The notes under the pieces were generated by a model, which did no database searches, was not told the DNA's origin, and saw only the letters and a list, made by a program, of their open reading frames with translations. A stretch of 64,000 nucleotides of DNA from Neobacillus massiliamazoniensis (GTDB lineage: Bacteria; Bacillota; Bacilli; Bacillales; Cytobacillaceae). The DNA is taken from assembly GCF_001048695.1 (NCBI RefSeq), contig NZ_CVRB01000004.1:124001-188000 (forward strand). Reading direction: 5' to 3'. Position 1 is the stretch's first letter; each line of letters starts with the position of its first letter. A program made the position numbers and the translations under genes. This document shows positions 29,090 through 31,582 of this stretch, piece by piece.

Positions 29090-29527
29090 TTATTTTTTAA
29101 ATAAATGGAGAAATTCACCATAACCCTCTTCTTTTAGCTTTTCTTTCGGGATAAACTTAAGTGAAGCGGAATTGATACAGTAACGTAATCCAGTCGGACC
29201 TGGACCATCATTGAACACATGACCTAAATGGGAATCTGCAGATTTGCTCCTCACCTCAGTTCGAATCATGAAATGACTGAGATCGGATTTTTCCACAATC
29301 TCATCCTCTTCAATCGGTTTTGTAAAGCTTGGCCAGCCACAACCAGCATCAAATTTATCAAGCGAACTGAACAATGGTTGCCTAGACACGATATCAACGT
29401 AAATTCCCTCACGCTTTTCATTCCAATATTCATTTTTAAAGGGTGGCTCCGTTGCATTGTTTTGTGTTACTTCAAATTGGGTGGGTGTCAATTCCTTTTT
29501 TAATTGGGCTAAATCTTTATTTTTCAC
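29090..29527 (-). CDS. msrB: peptide-methionine (R)-S-oxide reductase
   Basis: Repairs methionine-R-sulfoxide. It has CGWPSF with a resolving-type Cys, RTEVRS and the catalytic Cys in RYCINSASL. The two CxxC zinc motifs of other MsrBs are absent, as in B. subtilis MsrB. I start at GTG 29527, 11 nt inside msrA, with GGGGG 7 nt upstream, giving 145 aa. The longer frame upstream merely re-reads msrA in another frame. Confidence 0.95.
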
Positions 29528-30059
29528 GTTTCTGCCCCCAATGCCTTTGGATGAAATCAGCACGACCAGAACCAATATGATAGGATTCATAGTGCGCAGG
29601 ATTTTTCTTATAGTATTGCTGATGGTACTCTTCTGCCGGATAGAATTCACTGGCAGGAAGGATTGGTGTGACAATTGGTTTGTTAAAACGTTTACTTTCT
29701 TCCAATATCTTTTTAGATTCTTCTGCAAGCCTTTTTTGGGTTTCATTATGGTAAAATATCGCTGTTTGATAGGATTGTCCTCGGTCATAAAATTGCCCGC
29801 TTGGGTCGGTGGGATCAATTTGCTGCCAAAATAATTCAAGTAGTTTTTCATAAGGAAAAAGGTCAGGATTGTAGGTTATTTGAACAGCTTCAAAATGTCC
29901 GGTAGTGTCCGAACAAACTTGTTGATATGTGGGGTTTTCCACTTTTCCTCCTGTATAACCGGAAATCACGCTGATGATGCCGGGTTGTTCATCGAATGGT
30001 TTCGTCATGCACCAAAAACACCCTCCGGCAAAGGTTGCTAATTGATTTGCTTTTTCCAT
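29517..30059 (-). CDS. msrA: peptide-methionine (S)-S-oxide reductase
   Basis: 180 aa. The catalytic GGCFWC motif near residue 14, then GYTGG and the conserved [11 protein letters not shown] tail. Tandem ATGs occur at 30062/30059; GGAG is better spaced to the second. It forms an overlapping two-gene operon with msrB so both sulfoxide stereoisomers are reduced, using thioredoxin. Confidence 0.96.
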
Positions 30060-30158
30060 CATATCACTCCTTCTTTACCCTTATATCCAAGTATACAGAA
30101 TGATAATTCAAAAATAAAATAATGTAAGATTTTTGATAACATCATTCCTATATATATA

Positions 30159-30233
30159 GGCTGTGTTAATGACTGTTGATTTGCGCTCCAATCAACATTG
30201 TTTCAAAAATCAACAATGACCTTTAACACAGCC
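30159..30233 (+). mobile_element. MITE copy 5 (short form, 75 bp)
   Basis: Ends GGCTGTGTTAA and TTAACACAGCC; centre deleted at the CGCTCC motif. Flanking 8-mers TATATATA and TATATAAA match at 7 of 8. Confidence 0.9.
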
Positions 30234-30287
30234 TATATAAAAAAGTCGATTGAGTAATCAGTAATACCCATTCGACTTAAAATGCAT

Positions 30288-31358
30288 TTAATAAACGTTT
30301 CGTTTATGCTTCATTTGTTTATTAATATTTTTCCAATGTTTTTTCTCTTCAGACTGAGCCCGTTTGTCTGTTTTTCTTTCAATATAGGCAAGCTCTTTTT
30401 GTAGCTTGTTGTAGCTAATCAGCCTTTCAACATCAAGGAGCCCCTCATCAATTGCTTTAATCACCGCACAGCCAGGTTCATCCTTATGCTGACAATCACG
30501 AAATCGGCATTTCTCAGCAAGTTCCACGATCTCTGAAAAGGTTTCAGTTAATCCTTCTGAGCTTTCCCACAGCTGTAATTCCCTCATTCCGGGAGTATCA
30601 ATTAATATACTTCCGTTCTGAAGCATAATAAGTTCGCGATGGGTAGTTGTATGTCTCCCTTTATCATCCGCTTCACGGATCTTTTGGACTAATTGCTTTT
30701 CTTCACCTAATAATCGATTCGTTAAAGTTGATTTACCAACACCAGAAGAACCAAGTAATGCGATTGTCTGTCCAGGCTGCAAAAAGGGCTGTAGCTTTTC
30801 GAACCCGTGCATCGTTTCTGAGCTGATGGGGATGATGGGAACACTTCCAAACGCGATTGCTTCTACTTCGGCCATTTTTTCAGACAGATCATCACAAAGA
30901 TCCGCTTTACTTAAAATAATAACTGGATTGGCACCACTTTCCCAAGTGAGTAATAAGTAACGCTCAATTCTTCTTAAATTTAAATCTTCATTTAATGAAT
31001 TGACAAGAAAAACGGTATCAATATTTGTAGCAACAATTTGCTCTTCTGCCGTTTGACCAGCAGCTTTTCTTGAAAATTTACTTTTTCTAGGCAATATTGA
31101 ATATATCGTTCCTTTTCCTTCGTCCAATCTAGGCTTTAATACTACCCAATCTCCGACAGCAGGATAATCCTCCCTATTAATTGTCTCGAAGCTAAACTTT
31201 CCTGAGACCTCACACAATATTTCCCCATGCTCAGTCCAAACGCGGTACATTCGCTTATGCTCAAGAGCAACTCTACCAAGAATCAAATTATCTCTATTCT
31301 TTAATGCTTCAAAATCACTTTTAATGGTTTCTGTTAATCCAAAATTACTTAAATTCAC
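30288..31358 (-). CDS. rsgA: RsgA-type ribosome assembly GTPase (paralogue)
   Basis: 356-aa circularly permuted GTPase acting in late 30S maturation. Order: OB-fold (about 25-100), G4 LSKAD (149-153), G1 GSSGVGKS (203-210), G3 DTPG (254-257), then a C-terminal zinc site CRFRDCQHKDEPGC. It is longer than the B. subtilis housekeeping RsgA/CpgA (about 298 aa), with a Lys-rich tail that could bind RNA, so it is probably a second copy. GTG start behind GGAGG (8 nt). It is preceded by a leader-peptide/attenuator region. Confidence 0.92.
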   Translation of the reverse strand: MNLSNFGLTETIKSDFEALKNRDNLILGRVALEHKRMYRVWTEHGEILCEVSGKFSFETINREDYPAVGDWVVLKPRLDEGKGTIYSILPRKSKFSRKAAGQTAEEQIVATNIDTVFLVNSLNEDLNLRRIERYLLLTWESGANPVIILSKADLCDDLSEKMAEVEAIAFGSVPIIPISSETMHGFEKLQPFLQPGQTIALLGSSGVGKSTLTNRLLGEEKQLVQKIREADDKGRHTTTHRELIMLQNGSILIDTPGMRELQLWESSEGLTETFSEIVELAEKCRFRDCQHKDEPGCAVIKAIDEGLLDVERLISYNKLQKELAYIERKTDKRAQSEEKKHWKNINKQMKHKRNVY

Positions 31359-31383
31359 TTTTTATTCCTCCAATGTATATAAT

Positions 31384-31415
31384 AAAAAACCATAGGCATC
31401 ACAGCCCATGGTTTT
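31384..31415 (-). promoter_or_regulatory. attenuator hairpin in the rsgA leader
   Basis: On the minus strand AAAACCAT / ATGGTTTT with inner GGC/GCC pairing, followed by TTTTTT: an intrinsic terminator 26 bp before rsgA. Its loop-side TGGGCTGTG (31400-31408) is exactly complementary to CACAGCCCA in the leader peptide gene (31464-31472), giving a 9-bp antiterminator that excludes the terminator. Confidence 0.75.
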
Positions 31416-31447
31416 ACATACATTGTGGAATAACAGGTATGTAGACC

Positions 31448-31519
31448 CTAATAACAAAATCCTTGGGCTGTGCAATTACTATTCAAATGACGGTTTAAGT
31501 TAATATAAACAATGCTCAT
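31448..31519 (-). CDS. 23-aa leader peptide of rsgA
   Basis: ATG 31519 to TAG 31448, beginning MSIVYINLNRHLN and ending CTAQGFCY. It lies between a sigma-A promoter and the attenuator. Codons 16-18 (Cys-Thr-Ala) contain the antiterminator strand, so ribosome position on this frame would decide which hairpin forms. The ribosome site is weak (GGTGAAG). Reality depends on the regulatory model; no homology could be checked. Confidence 0.55.
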   Translation of the reverse strand: MSIVYINLNRHLNSNCTAQGFCY

Positions 31520-31553
31520 TGCACTTCACCCACTTTCATCATTATTTGTTTTT

Positions 31554-31582
31554 AGTATATGCAGAAATTAACCATTTGTAAA
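31554..31582 (-). promoter_or_regulatory. sigma-A promoter of the rsgA leader
   Basis: TTTACA - 17 bp - TATACT on the minus strand, placing transcription start near 31547, about 28 nt before the leader peptide and 190 nt before rsgA. Confidence 0.8.

Follow-up and report, generated by a model that had tools for sequence, protein, structure and literature searches.

In Listeria, the GTPase homologue HflXr is placed under a ribosome-dependent attenuator and, according to the accessible part of the report, protects cells against lincomycin and erythromycin (PMC6310831). In E. coli, the short frame toiL senses several classes of drugs, and the accessible sections of its description place the action of tetracycline and retapamulin at the start codon (PMC12121999). 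In S. coelicolor, which has an RsgA/EngC pair (SCO6149 and SCO5211), one of the two is listed as a member of the WblC-activated, antibiotic-induced regulon in the available portion of PMC7157823. No description of an RsgA or YjeQ gene with a leader peptide, uORF or attenuator was found in the literature searched, with supplements and most subscription papers outside its reach, and no title in these searches announced a functional study of the RsgA paralogue discussed below. In particular, rsgA, engC, yjeQ and yloQ do not appear in the main text of an attenuator survey (PMC2965389), the available parts of PMC9290621, PMC7927858 and PMC7278804 contain nothing bearing on such a leader, and nothing useful was present among the best 10 of 232 matches for chloramphenicol and Bacillus cereus.

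A second rsgA gene (rsgA2) is found on the minus strand of a 64,000-nt stretch of a Neobacillus massiliamazoniensis contig (the window, whose numbering is used throughout). The original prediction held that a TTTACA-17-TATACT promoter, a 23-codon leader and a terminator precede this gene, and all three can be read directly on the minus strand. The promoter, rated sigma-A-like, consists of a -35 box (TTTACA, 31577..31582) and a -10 box (TATACT, 31554..31559) separated by a 17-nt spacer, as seen in the sequence and in a survey of promoter-like matches. The leader frame (31448..31519) runs from the ATG at 31519 to a TAG ending at 31448 and encodes the peptide MSIVYINLNRHLNSNCTAQGFCY. Segment 0 of the leader RNA is the Shine-Dalgarno (SD) region of the leader, GTGGGTGAAGTGCAA (31519..31533), which pairs with segment 1 in the minimum free energy (MFE) fold, in the covariation score (0/500 shuffles) and in an SD-leader duplex test. 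Segment 1, CACAGCCCA (31464..31472), lies within the late leader codons and emerges from the triple scan and from covariation; its complement, the antiterminator part of segment 2 (TGGGCTGTG, 31400..31408), is supported by the same two approaches and by a pattern search in the genus. Segment 2 also supplies the 5' arm of the terminator, AAAACCATGGGC (31404..31415), and segment 3 (31384..31397) is the 3' arm, GCCTATGGTTTT (31397-31386), running into a T6 tract (TTTTTT, 31384-31389) that lies partly inside the arm; both arms are recognised by covariation, MFE folding and sequence. The gene's own SD, GGAGG (31367..31371), and rsgA2 itself (30288..31358, stop included; GTG start at 31358) follow, both on the minus strand.

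The perfect complementarity claimed between leader codons and terminator holds, since CACAGCCCA and TGGGCTGTG match exactly over 9 nt and the window's own 1:2:3 triple reaches p = 0.020 (300 dinucleotide-preserving shuffles of the leader only). The terminator was also correctly recognised, but its stem has 12 bp with one G-U and not 8 bp, and the pairing scheme, right as far as it went, had overlooked the pairing of the leader SD with CACAGCCCA. Free leader RNA of the window folds as 0:1 plus 2:3 (MFE), with an energy of -44.2 kcal/mol (z -2.59) that is equalled by 3/200 shuffles. Directly downstream of rsgA2, a 17-nt perfect inverted repeat with a 53-nt gap (TATATAGGCTGTGTTAA at 30153-30169 and TTAACACAGCCTATATA at 30223-30239) contains the string GGCTGTG, also present in segment 2; it might represent a MITE-like insert or else a long terminator. 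Further downstream (29090-30062), there are two overlapping frames that, by eye, we take to resemble methionine sulfoxide reductases, with GCFWC in the 181-aa frame.

The 356-aa product of rsgA2 is an RsgA-family GTPase that matches PF03193 and TIGR00157, both above cut-off, and has the features of the family: the GTPase domain, the G1 and G3 motifs and the zinc-binding motif. In 228 RsgA2 sequences (repeats included), G1 is present in 227, G3 in 227 and the zinc motif in all. The top fold matches of its AlphaFold model (mean pLDDT 75.6), which is too weak for a comparison of 30S contacts, are RsgA/YjeQ/YloQ structures. The sole paralogue found in its own genome is the canonical RsgA1, which is 34% identical across residues 63-316, and in a tree of RsgA1 (n=30) and RsgA2 (n=46, the window protein and 45 random picks out of the 228), the two form separate groups with support 1.0. 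Canonical rsgA1 gives one match per genome in 41/41 genomes of the order. The distribution of rsgA2 is patchy: at E<=1e-60, a threshold that may take in other RsgA paralogues, it was detected in 38/61 genomes of the genus, 76/120 of the order, 62/299 of the phylum and 134/299 sampled genomes (51/118 genera) of the class, own genome included in each. Cytobacillus/Neobacillus-type rsgA2 loci also occur on contigs whose titles name Pseudomonas sp. ISL-84, Paenibacillus sp. BSR1-1 and Sporosarcina globispora (L028, L005 and L031), and these record names may be wrong. RsgA2 is inferred to guard 30S subunits, or to repair them or mature them anew, when translation is under stress. Against a role in resistance count findings on canonical RsgA, which, as far as the available part of PMC12441150 goes, is less abundant under chloramphenicol in E. 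faecium and whose deletion in S. aureus is cited there as raising resistance.

Within the genus, the leader is tied to rsgA2. Its DNA was matched in 38/61 genomes of the genus (own genome included), the same 38 that have rsgA2, and the pattern CACAGCCC-(40-70)-TGGGCTGTG has a single site, the rsgA2 leader, in each of 36/61; the reversed control pattern has no match in these 61 genomes. Other target genes were rejected because the pattern occurs only at the rsgA2 leader in the genus, and this search of 61 genomes revealed no other gene under the device. On a wider scale, 176 distinct rsgA2 upstreams were compared (from 190, after removal of upstreams that were short, filled with N or repeated another in their last 200 nt), with gene starts picked by an uncurated SD-score rule and a reach of 330 nt. 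A leader with an SD of -6 kcal/mol or better is present in 160 of them, and in 94 of these 160 an automatic score for the 1:2:3 triple is individually significant (p<=0.05; 300 shuffles of the leader only), with 8 expected; the loci share ancestry, so that such counts are not independent. Conservation of the leader frame and of the pairing in relatives, which the original prediction named as a check, is borne out by both surveys. The remaining 66/160 are not individually significant. Of the 94, 78 belong to type A, in which a terminator arm with T residues serves as segment 3, and 16 to type B, in which the rsgA2 SD itself takes this place; judged by their sequences, some lineages would sequester the SD of rsgA2 instead of terminating.

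This score had been revised once after the data were seen (a U-run rule, a mismatch penalty and 300 shuffles). The first version permitted loose, mismatched helices, missed the window terminator because of a stem that extends into the T tract, and gave 72/160 loci at p<=0.05 and p 0.218 for the window with 100 shuffles. The controls were run on the final version: 2/173 upstreams from the window's own genome pass, one of which is the rsgA2 locus, leaving 1/172 others, and 0/30 rsgA1 upstreams pass; a leader with an SD is present in 35/173 (rsgA2 locus included) and 9/30, respectively. A second set of rsgA2 loci from the order, some repeating earlier ones, passes in 15/20 cases. Outside the class, 17/20 loci have a leader and 2/20 pass, a comparison of low power with short, G-rich segments. 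Among the 180 loci whose leader SD is <=-8 kcal/mol, 104 have a promoter-like match (>=10/12, <=90 nt upstream of the leader start), compared with 5 after shuffling.

Sixteen of the 176 upstreams have no leader with an SD within 330 nt. Recognisable leaders are absent within this distance from the rsgA2 copies L036, L043 and L074; in the first two, terminator-like hairpins occur in tandem and sequence resembling the segments appears at the far limit of the scan, so that some of the absent leaders may be further upstream. The single other upstream of the own genome with a significant triple (L200:728-1585, minus strand; 12-codon leader, p 0.01) is a candidate attenuator of the gene there. Second RsgA paralogues in L187, L188 and L192 (Paenibacillus by guess) have a different, 10-codon leader about 250 nt upstream, with similar peptides (MAATYMVVSS, LATTYMVVSV and MATTYRVVWS), which is possibly a separate, peptide-specific attenuator.

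In upstream regions among two sets of 80 rsgA2 loci listed, segment 1 is complementary to both segment 0 and segment 2, and in this four-segment scheme of related genomes, pairing 1:2 is incompatible with both 0:1 and 2:3. The 0:1 duplex is significant (p<=0.05 against shuffles) in 54/145 leaders, with 7 expected, and overlaps segment 1 by at least 3 nt in 85/91 triple-bearing loci. In significant type-A loci, the commonest distance from the last base of segment 1 to the end of the stop codon downstream is 16 nt (41/87). Each of the three helices shows covariation, which is less clear for 0:1, in an alignment of 50 of the 77 type-A loci with p<=0.05 and an SD of <=-8 kcal/mol; its rows come from triple-positive loci, a choice that favours pairing, and one row (L175) is misaligned. 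In helix 1:2, 95.9% of cells are paired with two-sided changes in 6/10 pairs, and in 2:3, 95.5% with two-sided changes in 6/11 pairs, both reaching 0/500 shuffles on all five measures. In 0:1, 87.7% of cells are paired and 0/500 is reached on three of the five measures, including the score and the number of cells with two-sided changes; the number of two-sided pairs (193/500) and the pair types (46/500) do not clearly exceed shuffles. The triple, 0:1 and covariation tests together describe mutually exclusive RNA structures, one of which uses leader codons.

A conserved structure with an SD inside helix 0:1 would also suit a switch made of RNA only, such as a riboswitch, a thermosensor or a protein-binding leader, in which the frame is incidental. 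This appears very unlikely, as the frame itself is maintained. The leaders usually have 22-24 codons, exactly 23 in 28/35 leaders at the genus level, and among 77 leaders the alternative frames +1 and +2 are open in 0 and 9, respectively. The SD duplex is -8 kcal/mol or better in 180/216 loci, a total that holds repeats (L235, L237, L240 and L243 have the same leader peptides as L040, L053, L055 and L070). Moreover, an Rfam search of the leader returned three matches, all below the gathering score and all to miRNA or enterovirus families.

The peptide sequence, by comparison with its length, is not kept. Differences between 136 close pairs of 37 ungapped leaders are distributed over the three codon positions as 28/36/36%, so that selection on the peptide is undetectable by this measure, and the frame in which segment 1 is read varies by clade (CTAQ in Neobacillus, (A/S)QPS in Fictibacillus and others). 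These observations bear on a drug-specific arrest-peptide attenuator of the erm, cat or hflXr kind, in which one class of antibiotic stalls the ribosome on a particular nascent peptide; the overall layout is alike, and the 14-aa leader of HflXr contains RLR. Among 180 leaders, RLR is present in 2 and IFVI in none, and the codon-position and motif counts revealed no conserved arrest peptide. A subgroup of 11 leaders with 18 codons (L166, L174, L180, L219-L221, L223, L226, L228, L230 and L232), of which 8 come from outside the class, shares AEIVxKGEV-like residues; in these loci, segment 1 is mostly GGGGAGG, mimicking the rsgA2 SD, with CCTCCC in between. Their differences are distributed as 29/34/37% overall and as 25/34/42% in codons 6-11, where they lean to third positions, and in this subgroup a role of the peptide is conceivable. 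For the device as a whole, the arrest-peptide explanation has a small chance of being right: the layout of resistance-gene attenuators pointed out in the original prediction is indeed present, but a drug-specific arrest peptide does not fit a peptide whose sequence seems irrelevant. Still further from what is found is an attenuator specific for one amino acid, of the trp or his kind. It would have identical terminator/antiterminator logic; however, the product is not biosynthetic, and no run of cognate codons was seen in the 180 leaders, in which at least four of any one residue within residues 2-13 occur in at most 7 (Val) and three identical residues in a row in at most 2. This explanation is therefore regarded as highly improbable. 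Translation of the leader seems to matter, and its peptide sequence seems not to. The conserved length, the unconserved peptide and the varying frame argue for a sensor of ribosome position and not of one drug or amino acid.

The consequences of ribosome position were modelled by masking a 30-nt ribosome footprint along the leader at 77 type-A loci. In full-length RNA at equilibrium, the mean probabilities of 1:2 and 2:3 are 0.50 and 0.45 when the ribosome occupies codon 1, 0.00 and 0.93 when it occupies the last codon, and 0.04 and 0.89 for RNA free of ribosomes; P(1:2) stays about 0.5 for the first two codons and drops to about 0.1 beyond roughly codon 6. In transcripts that end before segment 3, an early ribosome gives a P(1:2) of 0.9, and one on any of the last ten codons a P(1:2) of <=0.2. 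The folding thus points to readthrough after an early stall, especially at the start codon, and to termination after completed translation. The predicted switch is partial at equilibrium; in the window RNA, the terminator prevails even when a ribosome occupies codon 1 (P(2:3) 0.59, P(1:2) 0.35). Ribosome-free RNA also favours 1:2 before segment 3 is made (0.98 for the window, 0.77 on average), which implies that kinetics matter and that a ribosome-free transcript might read through; in these models, the outcome of a mid-leader stall and of a ribosome-free transcript depends on kinetics. At the type-B loci (n=13), completed translation likewise abolishes 1:2, but P(1:2) is already 0.45 in the free RNA.

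It is proposed that the leader is a ribosome-mediated attenuator that senses the place of the ribosome on the 23 codons. Without a ribosome, segments 0:1 and 2:3 would pair, forming the terminator (OFF). A ribosome that reaches the stop codon would cover segment 1, again allowing 2:3 to form (OFF). A ribosome held at the start or first codons would cover segment 0 and free segment 1 for segment 2; with 1:2 formed, the terminator would be absent or, in other lineages, the SD freed (ON). The fourth segment, the leader SD, thus makes early stalls, including those at the start codon, the predicted inducing event, and since the peptide is not conserved, any early stall should trigger the device. 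The output would be a distinct RsgA-family GTPase that presumably acts on the 30S subunit under translation stress. Conservation, covariation, the controls and footprint folding all support the architecture originally put forward, in which an attenuator upstream of a second rsgA reads ribosome position.

The same components could also form a homeostatic loop, in which slow maturation of 30S subunits delays clearance of the leader start codon and raises RsgA2, which in turn matures 30S, with no need for an antibiotic. Since segment 0 is the leader SD, initiation events would be read out, and the product comes from a family of 30S-maturation GTPases. However, canonical rsgA1, present in all 41 genomes, lacks the device (0/30 upstreams), and immature 30S may not bind the leader at all, the empty leader being predicted OFF at equilibrium. 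A loop of this kind is considered rather unlikely. The best reading, which is quite probable, is that the rsgA2 leader is a broad sensor of early stalls that would switch in vivo to induce RsgA2 as a ribosome-stress GTPase. A bolder version is plausible but falls somewhat short of probable: throughout the Bacilli and possibly the whole phylum, a gauge of early translation that is indifferent to sequence would read how quickly the ribosome departs from a strong start site, whatever the cause of a delay, and dose RsgA2, an unrecognised 30S stress and resistance GTPase, its output having been rewired repeatedly between transcription and translation.

Such a reading offers a concrete, testable function for a widespread RsgA paralogue (51/118 genera and 134/299 genomes of the class) and extends to the small subunit the idea, known from HflXr, of a spare ribosome GTPase as a stress factor. 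The loci also form a natural series of attenuators in which control of transcription and of translation interchange on an unchanged four-segment logic. If it works without an arrest peptide, such a leader would sense translation stress in general and be useful in screens for ribosome inhibitors.

The vmlR, cplR and vga(A) leaders control ABC-F resistance proteins and not RsgA. As described in the available sections of PMC12121999, the uORFs of these genes are induced by inhibitors thought to stall ribosomes at start codons. The toiL-topAI uORF resembles the proposed role of the rsgA2 leader in responding to several classes of antibiotics, in start-codon stalls and in a change of RNA structure; in the same accessible text, toiL acts through translation repression and Rho termination of a toxin-antitoxin transcript (PMC12121999). 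The rsgA2 leader, unlike toiL, precedes an RsgA paralogue, has an intrinsic terminator or a sequestered SD, and is found in many genera. The RsgA pair of S. coelicolor is similar in that one of two paralogues is linked to antibiotics and differs in its control by a transcription factor and in its phylum, as judged from the accessible part of PMC7157823. Like rsgA2, hflXr of L. monocytogenes (lmo0762, with rli80) encodes a homologue of a housekeeping ribosome GTPase and is preceded by an attenuator with a small ORF and alternative structures, and its genome also holds a second homologue (lmo1296), according to the available part of PMC6310831. As far as that text goes, the two differ in GTPase family and ribosomal subunit, and the 14-aa leader of hflXr with its RLR motif contrasts with an rsgA2 leader that is usually 22-24 codons long, has no conserved peptide and includes its own SD in the switch.
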